23,966 nt of DNA from a virus: IMG/VR virus record IMGVR_UViG_3300044546_000041, positions 1 to 23,966 of that record; one strand, written 5' to 3'. Below the pieces are notes generated by a model, which saw only the letters and a program-made list of their open reading frames with translations, did not search any database and was not told where the DNA came from. Both the position numbers and the translations under genes were made by a program. Positions 1-8,687 of the stretch are shown here, one piece after another. Every line of letters begins with the position of its first letter. Position 1 is the stretch's first letter.

Positions 1-409
1 CTGACTTAGCACCAAATATATTTTTTCCACCTTTTTCCATGAGAATCATAGGGCCACTAATCACATGACGAACAGCAGGATTAGTAAGGTCTATTTCTTG
101 ATCAGGTTTTAATCCAGTTCTTTGAGCGACAAAATTAATATAGCCTTCAGTATCGTTTTTATCTTGTGGAGGAGCATAACGGCTAATCACTCCTCTTAGC
201 GTATTAATGTTATGTTTTGTTCCATAAATCCTAAGATTGTCATCCATAGCTTTAATACCTTCTTCATAGCTAGAAGGTTGTTGAAAGCCTGTAGATGATC
301 CAACTGGTCTTAAATTGCCAACATTGTATTGATTGACACCGCCAACAGGATTAGCTTGTGGGTTAGGCTTTGCTTGCCCACCCATTAAGAATTGGCTAAA
401 ATTATCCAT
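1..409 (-). CDS. Virion-associated protein, N-terminal part (continues past left edge)
   Basis: The reading frame opens with ATG at 409, sharing a TAATG junction with the upstream gene, and stays open for 136 codons to the window edge, so the 3' end is missing. Residues 29-37 read NVGNLRPVG and residues 75-100 contain ISRYAPPQDKNDTEGYINF. These resemble the NPGN(I/L)R ... I(S)RWAPP.(E)NDT.aYI signature of a phage structural/muralytic-like family found in ejected virion proteins. The first 30 residues are Q/N/P-rich and look like a linker. Its position after two ejection-type proteins matches P22 gene 16. I infer an ejected internal protein, possibly with peptidoglycan-binding or cleaving activity. 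The catalytic activity is not proven from what is visible. Confidence 0.75.
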   Translation of the reverse strand, partial: MDNFSQFLMGGQAKPNPQANPVGGVNQYNVGNLRPVGSSTGFQQPSSYEEGIKAMDDNLRIYGTKHNINTLRGVISRYAPPQDKNDTEGYINFVAQRTGLKPDQEIDLTNPAVRHVISGPMILMEKGGKNIFGAKS

Positions 410-1713
410 TACAAAGTTCCTGTTTGGACTAATTTATTAATATTGTTGTATTTTTCATTAAAAATTTTAATTTGTTTTGGATCAGTTCCTAATAATTTAT
501 CTCTAGCTTTGGCTTTTTCTTCAGCAGACAATTTTGGATCATTAAAAATATTCATAGCTTGAAATATTTTGGTATCCGCATTGTTTGACCACATTTGTTT
601 AAATGCGTTCATATTGTTATCACCAAATTTTTGAGTAAATTTTTCAGCAGCAGCAGCTTGCATTTCAATATTGTGCATATCTGCTTTAGCTCTTTGGGCA
701 ATTTTAATTAAAGTTTCAGGAGGATAGGTGTAATCACCATTTGCTGCTGAACTTAAATTTTTATCTGCATCAGTTCTTAATCCAAGAGCTTGCATATTGC
801 TTAAAGTAGTTTGTGCAAGGTTTTTTGATAATTCATAATAAGTTGGATCTCCAACCCAAGTTGCAATTTTTCTATAAGCTGCTCCAAAAATACCACTTGT
901 GGGAGCTGAAGATTTTTCAAGTTTTTCTGCTACTTCAATTGTTTCATCTATATTTCTGCGTTCTGTTGCCATATTTGGCAAACGAGATACAAGATTATTT
1001 CTAAATTCAGTTCCAAATTTACGATCTGCATCTTCTTGCGGAAGTGCTGTAAAGGCTTGACCAGCCTGCCTTACTTGATAAGACAATGGAACTGGCTTGC
1101 TAAATTCTGATTTAACTGGTTGGCTCATATCTTGAGGTTGAACACCAGTTTTAGGAGCTGTAGTAGGAGCAACAGCAGGAGCTGTAGCAGATGGTTGAGT
1201 TCCTTGTTTATTAGGCTGATAACCACTTTCAGGCAATTGTGATGGCAATATACCGCCTGGATATACCTTTTGAAGTTGGTCTTGAGCGCTCAAAGTTTTA
1301 GACAAACTCATAGCCAACCAAGCTCTTAGTTCAGTTGACGATCCGTTTACTGGAACTCCTGATAACGCTTGATTTACAGCGCTTTCAGGAGTATTCATTC
1401 TTTTAGCGTTTTCTTTTACAGCATTTACAACATCATCAGAAGTTAAGTCAGGTTTTGTCAAAAGACCTTGAATACTTTGAGTAACTTGAGTTGTATGTTT
1501 TAAAGCATTTTCTAAGGTTGCACTATCCGCTTGCATTGTTGCAGTTTGAGCTTGTGCTTGACCTTGTTGAATTGCTGAAGGTAATAAAGCCTTTTCTCTT
1601 TGAAAAGCAGTAGAAGTTCTTCCAAGATCAACCATTTCTTGAATAGACATAGCTTTAGGAGCTTGTGTATTTCCATAAATACTTGGATCAGTTAAAGTGC
1701 TTAAAGCTGGCAT
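409..1713 (-). CDS. Putative internal/ejection protein (434 aa)
   Basis: This 434-aa soluble protein is rich in Gln, Ala, Thr and Lys and has predicted-helical stretches (residues 20-75 and 225-360) and a P/A/T/Q-rich linker around 150-205. The ATG at 1713 has a good AAGGA ribosome site. I recognise no catalytic motif and no signal peptide. It sits between the gp7-like protein and the NPGN/WAPP-domain protein, the place occupied by ejection protein gp20 in P22, and its long helical composition fits an ejected internal virion protein. Similarity to gp20 is inferred from position and composition only. Confidence 0.7.
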   Translation of the reverse strand: MPALSTLTDPSIYGNTQAPKAMSIQEMVDLGRTSTAFQREKALLPSAIQQGQAQAQTATMQADSATLENALKHTTQVTQSIQGLLTKPDLTSDDVVNAVKENAKRMNTPESAVNQALSGVPVNGSSTELRAWLAMSLSKTLSAQDQLQKVYPGGILPSQLPESGYQPNKQGTQPSATAPAVAPTTAPKTGVQPQDMSQPVKSEFSKPVPLSYQVRQAGQAFTALPQEDADRKFGTEFRNNLVSRLPNMATERRNIDETIEVAEKLEKSSAPTSGIFGAAYRKIATWVGDPTYYELSKNLAQTTLSNMQALGLRTDADKNLSSAANGDYTYPPETLIKIAQRAKADMHNIEMQAAAAEKFTQKFGDNNMNAFKQMWSNNADTKIFQAMNIFNDPKLSAEEKAKARDKLLGTDPKQIKIFNEKYNNINKLVQTGTL

Positions 1714-1728
1714 ATTATGTCCTTACTA

Positions 1729-2493
1729 TTATGTCTTCATATTTAGAGAGCTTAAATTACCACCTGATTCGGTTGGCCCTACTTGATTTTGGTATGTATA
1801 ACCAGTATTTCTATTTCCGCTTATTCCCATATTTTGATATGGATTTTGATTTTGATTCATAGCGTAATACATTCCAGCGTTGCCTATTGATTGAGCTGTA
1901 TTTCCATAAATATTGCCTTGAGCTATTTGAGAAGCTGCTTGTGCATTTCCTCCAGCAGAAGTCAAACTTGCAATATTAGTTCCAGTTCCAATCATTGCAT
2001 TGGCTTGACCAGTTGTTGCTGTCATACCAAAGTTAGCAATATCTTTTAAATTAGAGAAAATGTTGCCTCTTTGAGTTTGAAATTGGTTAAAAGCATTAGC
2101 GTATTCGCCTGAAGCAAAGTTTTGGGTATAGTCTTGCAAGCTACGCAAAGCGTTACCGCTTACAGCTCCACCAGTTACATTTGATGCCATTAAATTAGCT
2201 TTTTGACCTTGACCTAATCTAAAGTCATAGCTTGGTGCTAAATATTGATTTAAATCTTGATTAGTAAATTGTTTAGTAAAGTAAGGATCTTCAGACATCT
2301 TATTAAGAGCTGTAACTCCTTTAGATACATAAGGAGCGTAAACATCAGCAGCTCTTTCACCAGTTTCTAATAGCTGACCTTGCGCTCTAGCTTGAGCATC
2401 CGCTTGAGTTTTAGCAGCGCTTTTAGCGCCTTGGCTTGCCATGTAGCCTGAAGCTACTGATCCTACTACGATAGCTGTTGCGACTCCTGACAT
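1729..2493 (-). CDS. Internal virion/DNA ejection protein, P22 gp7-like
   Basis: The 254-aa product has a hydrophobic, small-residue N-terminus (residues 5-20) followed by an Ala/Gln/Lys-rich helix (22-48). It then carries the family signature: APYVSKGVTALNKM (53-66), SYDFRLGQGQ (88-97), GGAVSGNALRSLQDY (108-122) and FASGEYANAF (126-135). These match the conserved 'APY..G..AL ... Y.FRl.QG ... SG..l..L..Y....A..EY' pattern of podovirus DNA-transfer (gp7-type) proteins. The C-terminus is N/Q/G-rich. The ATG at 2493 lies next to the stop of the SET gene and has an AGGAGA ribosome site. Likely role: packaged in the capsid and ejected with the DNA to form the trans-envelope channel. Confidence 0.8.
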   Translation of the reverse strand: MSGVATAIVVGSVASGYMASQGAKSAAKTQADAQARAQGQLLETGERAADVYAPYVSKGVTALNKMSEDPYFTKQFTNQDLNQYLAPSYDFRLGQGQKANLMASNVTGGAVSGNALRSLQDYTQNFASGEYANAFNQFQTQRGNIFSNLKDIANFGMTATTGQANAMIGTGTNIASLTSAGGNAQAASQIAQGNIYGNTAQSIGNAGMYYAMNQNQNPYQNMGISGNRNTGYTYQNQVGPTESGGNLSSLNMKT

Positions 2494-3327
2494 TTAATCT
2501 CTCCTTATTGCAATACTCAAGGCTTGTCGATAATCAATAGTAATTTCTTCGCCTAAATTACCCCCTTGACACCCATTTATAGCCTTTTTTGCCACTAAAT
2601 CAATGTCATTATTATCTCTCAAAACCATAATTCCGTTAGCATTTTTTGAATGATTTGTATATCTGCCAATAGGAGTTCTTTTGCCATTTAATCTTGAAGG
2701 AGCAATAAGCTCTCCTTCTTTAAAATTACCAGTAGCAAACACTCCTTTTCCATCAATTTTTGAGTTGGCTACCATTACTTTGTAATTGCCAAAAGGCATA
2801 GGAATCTGATCGTCTGTATTTTCTGTCTGTTTTCTGACAGTTTTATGGTCAAACCCAAATTCAGCAATAGCTAAGTAATAGTCAGCAATGTCGGAAGAAT
2901 GGTCTAGGGTAAGCAACAGTTTTTGTGAGCTTTGATGATCTTGCCAAGTCATGCTTTTAAGCAAAAACATATTCTCCAGCTTTTCTATGTCTGTTTCGCT
3001 TGTAGCGTAAACATTTTGCCAAATCATATCTTCATGGATATAGCCTATTTTTCTTCCAGCTTTGGCTACAAATGTCTGTGGAGCAACAAGCTCCGTATGA
3101 GAACCATCTTCATTCACCATAGTTACTCTACCAGCAAGCATAATGTTTAAATGCTCGGTTTTTTGGTAATGACCTATGGAGAATGTTCCTGCTGGAATCC
3201 TTACTTCTCGGATGTAAATATCAGGAGCAAAGTGATGCGTAACAGGACAATCAGCTTGTTTTTCTTGTAAAAAGTGCTTTTCTAAATTTTGCACCTTTTC
3301 TTCTGTTATGACTTGAATATTAGACAT
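2494..3327 (-). CDS. Cupin-like + SET-domain protein (putative protein-lysine methyltransferase)
   Basis: The 277-aa protein seems to have two domains. Residues about 27-120 are beta-rich with GHYQKTEHLNIMLAG (52-66) and IGYIHEDMIWQNVYA (94-108). The spaced His residues (H53, H59, H98) and glycines resemble the two motifs of a small cupin barrel. Residues about 182-270 carry SET hallmarks: KIDGKGVFAT (190-199, GxG SAM-binding loop), GRYTNHSKNAN (221-231, the R-x-x-NHS motif) and GEEITIDY (259-266, with the catalytic-type Tyr266). The SET part is compact, as in viral SET proteins. The ATG overlaps the upstream 79-aa gene by 8 nt, so it is translated with the tail module. I infer SAM-dependent lysine methylation of a virion or host protein; the substrate is unknown. 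The cupin call is weaker than the SET call. Confidence 0.8.
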   Translation of the reverse strand: MSNIQVITEEKVQNLEKHFLQEKQADCPVTHHFAPDIYIREVRIPAGTFSIGHYQKTEHLNIMLAGRVTMVNEDGSHTELVAPQTFVAKAGRKIGYIHEDMIWQNVYATSETDIEKLENMFLLKSMTWQDHQSSQKLLLTLDHSSDIADYYLAIAEFGFDHKTVRKQTENTDDQIPMPFGNYKVMVANSKIDGKGVFATGNFKEGELIAPSRLNGKRTPIGRYTNHSKNANGIMVLRDNNDIDLVAKKAINGCQGGNLGEEITIDYRQALSIAIRRD

Positions 3328-3559
3328 TGTAGTAAGGCACTTTATAGATTTTGCCGTTTACTGTCATTTCAATAAATCCAACAGGGTTAGCTGGTAAAAC
3401 AGCTCCACCAGCCGTTGCTGAAGGAGATGTTCTAGTAAAGTTTAAAAGATTGGAAAAGAATATTTGCCAAGCTCTAGTTGGTCTTTTGGTTTGCTCATCC
3501 ATAAAATCAGTCTGAGGATAAGGATTATCTTGGGATGGCCCATATATAAGATTAGCCAT
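3320..3559 (-). CDS. Small virion protein downstream of tail hub (79 aa)
   Basis: This 79-aa protein starts at a TAATG junction with the gp10-like gene. The N-terminus is polar (YGPSQDNPYPQTDF, 6-19), followed by a short helical stretch (RAWQIFFSNLLNF, 29-41), a small-residue linker, and a C-terminal beta strand with GFIEMTVNGKIYKVPYY (61-77). The 'GFI...VNG...KVPYY' ending occurs in small podovirus structural proteins of unknown role. It lies where P22 has its tail needle gene 26, but it is much shorter and shows no long coiled coil, so I do not call it a needle. Confidence 0.65.
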   Translation of the reverse strand: MANLIYGPSQDNPYPQTDFMDEQTKRPTRAWQIFFSNLLNFTRTSPSATAGGAVLPANPVGFIEMTVNGKIYKVPYYNV

Positions 3560-5688
3560 TAATTTTCTCCAACAGAGGCTTTTAGGTTAGCCGACACAAT
3601 GACAGCTTTGACAGGATCTGTAACTACTACCTCATATATACGATCTCTAGCTTGTCCTAATCTGCGCCAAATAATACGATTTTGGTATTTACCGACTTTA
3701 CCAATTCCAGCCCAATGTTCATTAGACCAAGTAGAACCACCATCATTAGACCAACGCAACATAGCTTGAGGGTTTATACCTATGTCGTTATCTCCCAATG
3801 GAAAGGTTTCTATGCCTTGCAAACCTATGCCAGGTTGAAATTGAATCTGCAATTCATCAAAATATTGCCTTTGAAAGTCAGCTACTAAATGAGGACACCT
3901 TCTCATTCTTCTTATGTGATTACCATTGTCTGTGTAATTATTAGGATCTAAGCGATAAATTTGCCCATTTTCATAATCCCCAACTAAGAACTGGTTTTGG
4001 AACAAAGCTCCACAATTGGATCTGTGCCGTTTGTAGTTGTTTTGAGTATCAGTCCAAAGCCATTTATGCCAAAGTTGAGTTGCTCCATCATAAACCCATG
4101 TTAATTCAAGAGTTGGAAAGCTAACAACATAGCACTCATGTCCTTCCAATTGGTAGGTATAAGCTACGGCATCACTAATAGTTTGATTTACCAAAGTGTT
4201 TTCTACTGCATGAGTAGAAATACGCTGTGGAAAATAACCATTCATTTGAACAATAACCGCTTGACCACGATCATTTCTAGACACATAAACAAACGAATTA
4301 GCAAATCGAGCCATTGAAAATTGAGCTGCTATTCCATGCTGTGATGATGCGCCTGGTATTCTTTGGAAAGGAAATGGAAAAGTTCCAACATCTGCCCAAA
4401 CTTCAGAAGTCTTTTCACCTAACAAATAGATTTGACCATGATCGACTATTAATGAAACTAAATCGTCAGGCCCTGTAAATTTACTAGCAAAAGAAAGACC
4501 ATAAGTAATTGGAGAAAGAACATCTGAAGCAGCGTATTGTTGAGTGTCAGGTCTGTTATAAATAAAGTAGTTATCAACTATATCGACTACAGAACCACCA
4601 GCAAAAGCTCCATCTGTAGATGGAAGTTCACTAAAATTTAAGCCATACATAGTTATAGAACTAATAGTTTGACTATTGTTTATGACATAGTTACCAGTTG
4701 AACCAGTTCCTGTTCCAAAAGTTAATGTTAAAGTTAATCCTGTTCCTGAACCATCAGAAGTAGTCGATACATTGTTTGCAGGATTAGCAGTATATTGACC
4801 TGAAAAAGTTCTTGTAAGTCCTGTAACATTTCCTGTACCGCCTATTGAAGTAACTGTATAAGTAGCAGGACTAGAACCATAAACACCGCCTAAAACAGTT
4901 ATATTTTCGTTTACACCATAACCAGTTCCTGCTGTTGCAATAGTTTCGCTTAAAACAGTTCCGCTACCTAAAGCTGTAATAATGGTTTTAGGGGTTATTC
5001 CAGTTCCTGTAATTGTTTGACCAGCATACAAAGTTCCACTAGCAACAGCCGAAACAGTTAAAGTTGTTGTTGACATAGATCCTGTCAATACAGCACCTAC
5101 TGTTGCTGAGTTCATTTGGATTGCAGGAGTAATAGTATGACTTTGATTAATAGTCCAAGATGTTCCTGATCCAGCCGTTATAACTGTTTGATTGGATATT
5201 CCAATACCAAATAAAGACTGACCTACAGCTATTGTTCCGCTTAAAACTAAAGTTACAGTAAGAGTAGTTCCGCTAATTGTTCCTTTAAATACAGCAGAAG
5301 CAGGATTAGAAATGCGCCAAGTGTAACGATTAGAACCATCTACGATATAGACATTTAAACCATTATCAGTAATGCCTACTTGACCAGTTGAAGTATTTAA
5401 CTGACCTACAATTGTTGCAGTAAATGTTGAACCCATTACATAAACATAAGGGCCACATACCGCAACCATATAATCTCCACCTGAAACAGTTCTCATGCCC
5501 CTTACTTGTTGAGCATTTTGAAGGGTTACAACATTGGTAAGTCCTGGTGTTGGATAAAGAGCAATAACCTGTCTAGCGCCTTGTGGAAGGGTAGGATCAA
5601 TTTCAGGTCTAAAGTTTATGCACTCCTGAGCATCTTGATAGATGGAAGGAGCTTCATAAGCTGCGCCAACAAAGTTAAAGTCTGCCAT
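3559..5688 (-). CDS. P22 gp10-like packaged-DNA stabilisation / tail hub protein with inserted beta modules
   Basis: The 709-aa product starts like gp10-family proteins: residues 1-30 include FVGAAYEAPS and the QECINFRPEI segment, then ALYPTPGL (43-50). Later segments with DNYFIYNRPDTQQ, GEKTSEVWADVG and CYVVSFPTLELTWVYD match the beta-propeller-like core of the phage stabilisation family. P22 gp10 has 472 residues. Here residues about 134-348 are a low-complexity T/S/G-rich insertion; removing it leaves about 494, close to the family size. In P22 this protein joins gp4 and the needle to seal the packaged DNA and carry the tail fibres. It lies 9 nt downstream of the gp4-like gene. The start ATG at 5688 has only a weak ribosome site, so it may be coupled to its neighbour. 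Confidence 0.88.
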   Translation of the reverse strand: MADFNFVGAAYEAPSIYQDAQECINFRPEIDPTLPQGARQVIALYPTPGLTNVVTLQNAQQVRGMRTVSGGDYMVAVCGPYVYVMGSTFTATIVGQLNTSTGQVGITDNGLNVYIVDGSNRYTWRISNPASAVFKGTISGTTLTVTLVLSGTIAVGQSLFGIGISNQTVITAGSGTSWTINQSHTITPAIQMNSATVGAVLTGSMSTTTLTVSAVASGTLYAGQTITGTGITPKTIITALGSGTVLSETIATAGTGYGVNENITVLGGVYGSSPATYTVTSIGGTGNVTGLTRTFSGQYTANPANNVSTTSDGSGTGLTLTLTFGTGTGSTGNYVINNSQTISSITMYGLNFSELPSTDGAFAGGSVVDIVDNYFIYNRPDTQQYAASDVLSPITYGLSFASKFTGPDDLVSLIVDHGQIYLLGEKTSEVWADVGTFPFPFQRIPGASSQHGIAAQFSMARFANSFVYVSRNDRGQAVIVQMNGYFPQRISTHAVENTLVNQTISDAVAYTYQLEGHECYVVSFPTLELTWVYDGATQLWHKWLWTDTQNNYKRHRSNCGALFQNQFLVGDYENGQIYRLDPNNYTDNGNHIRRMRRCPHLVADFQRQYFDELQIQFQPGIGLQGIETFPLGDNDIGINPQAMLRWSNDGGSTWSNEHWAGIGKVGKYQNRIIWRRLGQARDRIYEVVVTDPVKAVIVSANLKASVGEN
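4645..5289 (-). repeat. Inserted beta-module array in the gp10-like protein
   Basis: This encodes residues about 134-348 of the gp10-like protein. Module A (134-193) begins [20 protein letters not shown]. Module B starts at about 199 with TGSMSTTTLTVSAVASGTLY and ends at 330-348 with TGNYVINNSQTISSITMYG. A second kind of module, SETIATAGTGYGVNENITV onward (about 245-329), sits inside module B, so one insert is nested in another. The same type of module occurs in the gp4-like gene. At protein level the copies share the '[10 protein letters not shown].SGt...Gq...G.Gi...T.ItalgsGtg' pattern. Confidence 0.75.
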
Positions 5689-5697
5689 TTTTTAGCT

Positions 5698-6894
5698 TTA
5701 TCTAAAGAAACCGCCACTAAGAATCCAACCAGCATCTTTTTGTCTGCTTGAAAGCATTGCATCTGCAAACTGAGCTGATGCCATAGGTTTCATATTGGTT
5801 CGTTTTAAAGTTGCTTTAGCTTGAGCTGCGTAAGCATTAATCATTGTTATTTGCGTTGCAGAGGCTTTGCCATACATAGGCATTAAACGCTCTGCCAAAC
5901 ACCATCTGAGCGCCATTGAATAGCCTTGTGGAAGCACTATATCGTCATACATAGTGCCGTAATTGCTAAACAAGGTCTGAGCAAATAAATGTACTTCTCC
6001 CTGTGAAGGGTTTGGCCATAAGAACACATTTCCTGATTGCTCATTTGGATTGAAATAGACTGCCTTTGGCCATGGGCCATTAAGCGTTTTTAAACCAATT
6101 GAGTTGTAGTTATCCAAAGCCAAAACTGCCATTTGGTAATCTAAACCACCATTGTAAATAGGTTGACCATTAGAGCTAGTATTTACCCTTACATAAGCAC
6201 TATCAATTCCTAGTGGTTTTTGATAGTAAGCAGTAATAGTAGAAGCAACAATAGTTCCAGTTATGGTTGTAGAAGAAACAGTCTGCGAAGCGCTAACTGT
6301 ATAAGTTCCAGTTCCACCAGTTCCTGATACAAGAGCTGAAATAGTTGTTCCTACTGTTACTCCAGTTCCGCTAATTACAGAACCTACATTGACAGCACCT
6401 GAAGTCATAGCTGTAACAGTAAGCGTTGTTCCTGAGATTGAACCAGTAAATACAGGAACTTGAGTAGGTTGAGTAATGTTTAAAAGGTAAGTTCCTTGTT
6501 CATTTACATTACCACCAGCTCCTGTCAGATTACGAACAATACGAGTTCCGCTAGTAACACCTTGACAGGTTAAATATTGACCTTGAGCTACAGCTCCTGA
6601 ATTTATGCCAGTAACTGTCAAAACATTGCCTGAAAAAGTTCCTGTAAAAGAAGATCCAATAAAGTTAGCTGTAGAAGGATCAGGGCCAATGGTGTATTGC
6701 ACTTGACCAGCTACAACAGGAAAAATGATCTCCGTAATGTTGAAAACCATCATATCTTCGTTAGACCATTGGTCTATAAGGTCATTCATTAAATCAAAAG
6801 CATCTTTAGCAGAATCTGCTGTAGGTTGTTCTCCAGCTTCCAAAGCTCCTATGTCTTTTAATGAGCGACTAATAATGTCAATTGGTTTGGTCAT
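5698..6894 (-). CDS. P22 gp4-like head-tail adaptor (tail accessory factor) with inserted beta modules
   Basis: Residues 1-50 ([20 protein letters not shown], then [19 protein letters not shown]) match the helical N-terminus of the gp4 tail-accessory-factor family, which binds beneath the portal ring and starts neck assembly. The core resumes at about 225-398 with [12 protein letters not shown] and a helical C-terminus ([18 protein letters not shown]). P22 gp4 has 166 residues, against 398 here. Much of the excess is residues about 82-217, two T/S/G-rich beta modules placed between the TIGP segment and the [11 protein letters not shown] segment. The ATG at 6894 has an AGGA ribosome site. Its partner gp10-like gene follows directly. 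Confidence 0.85.
6244..6651 (-). repeat. Two inserted beta modules in the gp4-like protein
   Basis: This encodes residues about 82-217 of the gp4-like protein. Module 1 is at 84-145 ([20 protein letters not shown] onward). Module 2 is at 149-213 ([20 protein letters not shown], ending [18 protein letters not shown]). They have the same plan as the modules in the next gene. The nucleotide match between genes is visibly imperfect, so the spread is not recent. Confidence 0.72.
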
Positions 6895-7577: not shown

Positions 7578-8687
7578 TCAGAATGTAATTGAACCTGACG
7601 AGGTGAATGTATAAATTTTATTACCACCTGTATTAGAGAATGAAGGTGAACCAGTTGTAGAAGCAGCGTTATCAAAAGTATTTGGGTAACTAATAATTAC
7701 AATACCTGAACCGCCAGCACCGCCATTTGTTACAGTATATTGCCAACCAGCACCACCACCACCACCTGTATTTGCTGTACCAGGAAGTCCATCTAAAGTA
7801 GCAAAGCCACTATCACCACCACCACCTGTTCCACCTGCATTTCGACCACCTGCTGAAACAGCACCGCCACCACCACCTGCCCTAGTTACAGAACTGCCTG
7901 AAATAGATGATGTCGAACCATCACCACCTCTAGCATTACCATTAGTTCCACCAGCTTGACTAGCGCCACCGCCACCACCACCAGCGGAGCTAGTTCCACC
8001 AGCTTGTCCATTGTTTCCTTGACCACCAGTTCCTGAACCACCACCGCCACCACCATATTGTCCACCACCGCCTGAACCACCACTACCGCCAGCACTTGTA
8101 GAACCTGAACCACCACCACCATAACCACCACCAGTAGAAGTTATAGAACTGAAAACAGAATCAGAACCAGGTGATCCGTTTGAACTTCCTGGAGCACCAC
8201 TACCGCCACCACCTACTGTTACTGTAAGACTTGATCCTGGGGAAACAGAAAATCCTGATGCTGTTCTATAACCGCCAGCACCAGCACCACCGCCACCACC
8301 TGAACCACCGCCACCACCGCCAGCTACTACTAAATAAGTAACTGAGGTTGTTGGGTTTACAGTTGTTATGGAATTACTTGCTGCGCTTGGAGCGCTTGTT
8401 CCAATAGCGTTAGTCGCTGTAACAGTAAATGTATAGGAAGTTCCAGCAGTTAATCCAGTTACATTAATTGTTCCTGAGCCTGCTTGACTTATTGTGCCTG
8501 TACCACCTGAAGGACTTGAAGTTGCTGTATATGATGTAATTACAGAACCACCATCACTTACTGGTGCTGTATATGAAACAGTTGCTGTAGTTGCTCCTGT
8601 AGCAGTTGCTGTTCCTATTGTTGGCGCATTAGGTACTGTTGCCGTTACTCCCCCACCTGCAAGAAGATTAAGAAAAATACCACTCAT
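7578..8687 (-). CDS. Tail fibre/adhesin with fibronectin type III and poly-glycine domains
   Basis: The 369-aa product has three parts. Residues about 19-109 form a fibronectin type III domain (PNAPTIGTATATG ... NVTGLTAGTSYTFTVTATN). Residues about 118-328 form a glycine-rich domain that opens with TYLVVAGGGGGG, contains a beta segment with SVSPGSSLTVTVGGGG (147-162), and closes with GGSGIVIISYP (325-335), typical borders of phage glycine-rich adhesin domains. A short beta tail ends in IYTFTSSGSITF. Such glycine-rich folds can form polyglycine-II bundles at fibre tips and bind host surfaces. The start overlaps the 745-aa fibre gene by 4 nt (ATGA), so both are made together. No frameshift is visible despite the repetitive DNA. 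Confidence 0.82.
   Translation of the reverse strand: MSGIFLNLLAGGGVTATVPNAPTIGTATATGATTATVSYTAPVSDGGSVITSYTATSSPSGGTGTISQAGSGTINVTGLTAGTSYTFTVTATNAIGTSAPSAASNSITTVNPTTSVTYLVVAGGGGGGSGGGGGAGAGGYRTASGFSVSPGSSLTVTVGGGGSGAPGSSNGSPGSDSVFSSITSTGGGYGGGGSGSTSAGGSGGSGGGGQYGGGGGGSGTGGQGNNGQAGGTSSAGGGGGGASQAGGTNGNARGGDGSTSSISGSSVTRAGGGGGAVSAGGRNAGGTGGGGDSGFATLDGLPGTANTGGGGGAGWQYTVTNGGAGGSGIVIISYPNTFDNAASTTGSPSFSNTGGNKIYTFTSSGSITF
7704..8324 (-). repeat. Glycine-codon-rich low-complexity tract
   Basis: On the plus strand this reads as many short CCA/CCG/CCT runs, which are Gly codons of the fibre on the minus strand. Runs of 4-6 Gly alternate with short S/T/N/Q spacers. The unit length is irregular, so this is low complexity rather than a true tandem array. 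Confidence 0.8.

Follow-up and report, generated by a model that had tools for sequence, protein, structure and literature searches.

A cupin–SET fusion gene beside the first ejection protein of a P22-like podophage, and covariation of the SET domain with the N-terminus of its neighbor

Gene organization of the virion operon

The window (the entire 23,966-nucleotide stretch of viral DNA analyzed here) contains the virion operon of a P22-like podophage, with P22-type portal, coat, and gp10 proteins. A cupin–SET fusion gene on the minus strand (2494–3327; 277 aa; PHROG_34170) lies between the gene of a 79-aa protein (3320–3559, minus strand), similar to proteins encoded upstream of many family members, and the gene of a gp7-like first ejection protein (1729–2493, minus strand; 254 aa; PHROG_598, 1e-24) that starts with MSGVATAIVVGS. 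These genes are flanked by those of a gp10-like head closure protein (3559–5688, minus strand; PHROG_578, 1.9e-98) and of a 434-aa protein (409–1713, minus strand), which was assigned to the place of P22 gene 20 by position only. The original prediction described these genes as joined by overlaps, and this applies to the gp10-like and 79-aa genes (1 nt) and to the 79-aa and fusion genes (8 nt), but the TAA of the fusion gene directly abuts the ATG of the gp7-like gene, with an AAGGAG sequence within the 3' end of the fusion gene. No matches were returned when the window was scanned with Rfam and for tRNAs. Within 3559–6894, insertions of a common Thr/Val-rich repeat are present in both the gp10-like and the adaptor-like proteins, and a protein with fn3 (4e-12) and Gly_rich_2 (6.6e-17) domains is encoded amid structural genes (7578–8687).

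The position just upstream of the first ejection protein is occupied by a small gene in other phages as well: gene 14 in P22 (DUF2824), gene 13 in T7 (PF11090), and gp13 in epsilon15 (PF11090). A profile of the proteins downstream of the fusion genes, built without P22, matched P22 gp7 (8e-15), and the fusion gene was found in the slot of P22 gene 14, as proposed earlier. However, these slot genes are members of other families, and a sequence relation to cupin or SET domains was not found for any of them. P22 gp14 was rejected as a cupin given its DUF2824 membership; it matches only PHROG_651 and DUF2824, neither of which is matched by the window protein, and its relation to the fusion gene is thus one of gene position only. 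The record of epsilon15 gp13 describes a GNAT acetyltransferase, with tblastn matches to gp13-type proteins. The link between T7 gp13 and GNAT rests on this protein; direct hhalign comparisons of T7 gp13 and DUF2824 with GNAT were weak.

Domain structure of the fusion protein

The window protein shows a full-length match to PHROG_34170 (1.1e-89, residues 4–271), and its AlphaFold2 model (mean pLDDT 90.5) comprises a beta-barrel (residues 29–107), helices (114–168), and a SET part (180–273). We distinguish a cupin-fold domain (residues ~8–125; 2953–3306, minus strand), a helical linker (residues ~126–177; 2797–2952, minus strand), and a compact SET domain (residues ~178–270; 2518–2796, minus strand).

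SET methyltransferases are best known in animals and plants. The Pfam SET profile scored 24.6 bits in the window protein (cut-off: 22.4) and matched 30 of 32 family members, and the family profile in turn matched the SET domains of MLL1 (1.5e-6), vSET (6.6e-4), and EZH2 (0.0017). In Foldseek searches, the second half of the model matched SET8, EZH2, and vSET. Based on the Pfam profile and on the AlphaFold2 and Foldseek results, the fusion protein is assigned to the SET fold; the fusion of a cupin-like first half with a SET-like second half was anticipated in the original prediction, and both folds are recovered in the model. The motifs that it named are all at the positions given (G193/G195, R222-x-x-N225-H226-S227, and GEEITIDY at 259–266), with R217-T218 as a further SET element. 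Motifs for SAM binding and the active site (GxG, R..NH, and E.T.DY) are present and essentially invariant in 63 representatives (<90% identity), including residues S189, G193, G195, R222, N225, H226, E261, and Y266, and the dN/dS of the SET part (0.05–0.26) shows purifying selection. Such conservation is expected for a working SAM enzyme, not for a relic.

Among known proteins, vSET of the PBCV-1 chlorella virus (A612L) is also a compact viral SET domain, and an alignment with it shows that the SET-I insert is nearly absent in the window protein. The vSET structure (3kma) and the model share 29% identity, with a TM score of 0.65 by target length. The two differ in context: vSET stands alone as a 119-aa enzyme for histone H3K27, whereas the window SET domain is fused to a cupin and encoded in the ejection cassette of a tailed phage.

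For the first half of the model, Foldseek returned many single-domain cupins (E ~1e-4, probability 1.00; double-stranded beta-helix); the top matches, two-domain oxalate decarboxylases, were set aside because of an rmsd near 21. The Cupin_2 Pfam match remained below the cut-off (12.3 bits vs. 27.2; E 0.14). Given this weak score and the clear fold, we assigned the domain to the cupin fold and not to Cupin_2. Candidate metal-ligand sites are occupied by H/K (residue 53), Q/H (55), mostly H (59), and variable residues (98).

Family distribution and domain arrangements

We found 572 relatives in viral contigs. The fusion is present in GenBank phages including Rhodoferax phage P26218, Pseudoalteromonas phage PH1, and Manatee Spring phages, and the cupin half alone was matched in about 50 more GenBank records, being a separate gene in those inspected. 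In Vibrio and Dickeya phages, a stand-alone cupin gene is directly upstream of the ejection protein. Scans of one genome per species yielded no more than seven relatives, each in a metagenome-assembled bin; the stand-alone cupin profile, built from mixed members, was too divergent for scanning. Among 237 loci, 123 contain fusions and 98 contain stand-alone cupins. Two loci (L122 and L123) encode the domains in reversed order (SET–cupin) in one gene, and in two others (L222 and L224) the SET domain, accompanied by the helical linker, is a separate gene that overlaps the cupin gene. The joining of SET and cupin in several arrangements implies that the two domains act together.

Similar compact SET domains with an RTPxGxxxNHS-type signature exist in T4-like marine phages and a pelagiphage (PHROG_28741; L126–L134), but these stand alone, without a cupin and away from ejection genes. 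In large marine phage contigs, two compact SET genes are arranged in tandem (L132, 5914–6668; also L126–L131), and those of L132 sit between glutaredoxin-like and deformylase-like genes.

The stand-alone cupins (PHROG_12032, PHROG_24280, PHA00672) have a homologous cupin-fold domain and occupy the same slot before the ejection protein, without the SET domain of the window protein. One of the PHROG_12032/PHROG_24280 kind is encoded at 7947–8441 of L042 and is named as a short tail fiber/adhesin. The names given to the cupin half in PHROG ("short tail fiber" and "tail fiber adhesin") would suit a structural tail-tip or adhesin protein in which the SET domain is an inactive, beta-rich building block. 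We consider this quite improbable: the catalytic motifs and the low dN/dS described above argue against an inactive domain, the SET domain is absent altogether from many homologues, and the linkage that stays constant is with the ejection protein and not with fibers. No experimental basis was found for the tail-fiber names of these three groups and, given this linkage, the names of PHROG_12032 and PHROG_24280 may be wrong.

Linkage to the first ejection protein and its N-terminus

Linkage to gp7-type genes had been named as a test of the original prediction, and it holds: a gp7-like gene is directly downstream in 104 of the 113 fusion genes with a readable neighbor. Linkage was scored with the gp7 profile alone because the gp10 and gp4 profiles cross-match, probably via common repeat inserts. 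Nine neighbors failed this profile, at least one of which (L040) is explained by a wrong ORF pick. When neighbors are not gp7-like, or when the locus contains only a cupin, the first 20 residues usually fit the pattern M[ST]x[VA]A.A..G. In L026, L077, L107, L114, and L124, for instance, the body of the neighbor is not gp7-like and the N-terminal segment is of the same kind. Because this start is kept despite differing bodies, the N-terminal segment (residues 1–20; 2434–2493 of the window, minus strand) appears to be the constant partner.

Residues 2–3 of this segment covary with the SET domain. In representatives taken from contigs found by a few queries, residue 3 is small (MS[G/A/S]) in 39 of 41 SET-bearing cases and bulky (Trp in most) in 54 of 55 cupin-only cases (small in one; Fisher: 2.6e-23, phylogeny ignored). 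Where several starts were possible, the choice followed a rule favoring an M[ST]x[VA]A.A..G-type N-terminus, and most of the starts used are those of the longest ORF. Gene overlap was ruled out as the source of the pattern, given that among non-overlapping gene pairs residue 3 is small in 14/14 with SET and bulky in 14/14 without. The two exceptions among the 41 SET-bearing cases are L119 and L185, and the L222/L224 lineage also departs from the pattern. L119 combines a full-length fusion with a W3 neighbor, and LTEAARWINH replaces RTPxGRYTNH in its SET motif; L185 has an F3 neighbor and a truncated SET domain; and L222/L224 have an intact, separate SET domain, yet an MSFA (F3) neighbor.

The pattern also changes within the cupin tree. 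Three cupin-only loci (L051, L148, and L221) have nearest cupins that are all SET-bearing and neighbors without MS[GAS] (the start is ambiguous, MMGW, in L148), and are apparent SET losses. Conversely, PH1 and the L122/L123 pair are SET-bearing, have cupins nearest to cupin-only ones, and have MSG/MSA neighbors. The covariation is a new finding and, judging from these sequences, mostly tracks apparent gains and losses of the SET domain.

The same data bear on phylogenetic inertia, that is, a single gain of SET by a lineage in which MSG starts were already present, in which case the covariation would not indicate the target. A single clade of all SET-bearing cupins was not rejected in the cupin tree, which is short of columns (AU test: p-value 0.13), and well-supported (starred) branches provided only three independent pairs, too few for significance. 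These few switches and the L222/L224 exception are consistent with inertia, whereas the differing gene arrangements, the changes of residue 3 with SET state in L051, L148, L221, PH1, and L122/L123, and the start kept across varying partner bodies speak against it. Overall, we regard inertia as possible but somewhat unlikely.

N-termini in podophages with other slot genes

In phages that have a GNAT or T7-gp13-type slot gene and no cupin, the neighbor starts with Met-Cys in 13/13 cases (L140, L141, L144, L238, L239, L240, L242, L243, L244, L246, L248, L249, and L250), which points to acylation or acetylation of the N-terminal Cys of T7 gp14 by gp13. The slot gene is absent in SP6 and phiKMV, and the neighbor starts with Met-Ala. 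SnaP-R1 encodes a cupin before a T7_gp14-family protein that starts with MTW. In Colwellvirinae (L142, 4998–5629; L136, 5866–6560), a GNAT gene is followed by a gene of 59–60 aa and the portal gene, and at this place Alteromonas phage R8W has a cupin together with an 82-aa protein whose N-terminus is gp7-like.

Proposed function

A literature search returned nothing on the function of phage SET or cupin proteins. We give about an even chance to the reading that the cupin–SET protein is an assembly enzyme with two domains. The cupin-fold domain would dock the product of the next gene, the ejection protein, at its hydrophobic N-terminus (M[ST]x[VA]A.A..G), and the SET domain would then methylate this protein ahead of its packing into the head, leaving an N-terminus ready for storage or membrane insertion. 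The likeliest target would be the free alpha-amine of Ser after removal of the initiator Met, with a lysine in the same ejection protein as second choice. The cupin–SET gene would thereby take the place of the GNAT acetyltransferase-type gene (T7 gp13, epsilon15 gp13) of other podophages. Methylation of an ejection protein was part of the original prediction; linkage and covariation support it indirectly and narrow it to the N-terminus of the neighbor.

Methionine aminopeptidase removes the initiator Met when position 2 is small, and S, T, A, or G occupies this position in almost every partner; removal of the initiator Met is thus expected, which would leave the alpha-amine free. Methylation of an alpha-amine has a precedent among SET enzymes in the Rubisco small-subunit methyltransferase. 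Two points favor the alpha-amine as target: no other amine at the conserved end is common to all partners, and a small residue 3 accompanies SET, as needed for a narrow channel. SET enzymes admit the amine via such a channel, and lysine is their usual target (PMC1282579). A peptide starting with Ser-Gly could enter the channel, and one starting with Ser-Trp could not easily do so. In T7, the first ejection protein is insoluble in water, is believed to leave before the others, and forms an outer-membrane pore (PMC8954989), so its N-terminus would be a sensible thing to prepare.

The preference of SET enzymes for lysine, together with a Lys or Arg around residues 20–28 in many partners, could instead point to a lysine methyltransferase whose target is an internal lysine of gp7 or a different virion protein, with the residue-3 pattern reflecting cupin binding only. 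However, the partners have no lysine position in common, the first lysine being beyond residue 90 in some, and in PH1, L122, and L123 residue 3 is small despite cupins that are closest to those of cupin-only loci, showing that the switch tracks SET more than cupin type. We view this explanation as unlikely. A virion-borne enzyme that is ejected to methylate a host protein would fit the location in an ejection cassette, but the covariation with the adjoining phage protein indicates a phage substrate, and a stand-alone cupin without SET can occupy the same slot. Action in the host, also raised in the original prediction, gained no support of its own and is in our view very improbable.

Taking the assembly enzyme together with the Met-Cys phages, we tentatively propose, at less than even odds, a slot model in which an enzyme or chaperone gene prepares the N-terminus of the first ejection protein, with SET methylating the alpha-amine. 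GNAT-type genes would be paired with Cys starts (T7 gp13/gp14), cupins with Ser/Thr-Trp, and cupin–SET genes with Ser-Gly/Ala. This parallel raises the finding above a domain oddity, and an orphan family present in hundreds of contigs is now tied to a specific partner. The model predicts that the first ejection protein carries a modification at its mature N-terminus, of a kind that residues 2–3 and the upstream gene would reveal, with a bearing on how hydrophobic ejection proteins are stored and inserted. If true, T7 gp13 would gain a role, this would be, to our knowledge, the first known N-terminal methylation of a phage ejection protein, and SET enzymes would be extended to virion assembly in bacteria.
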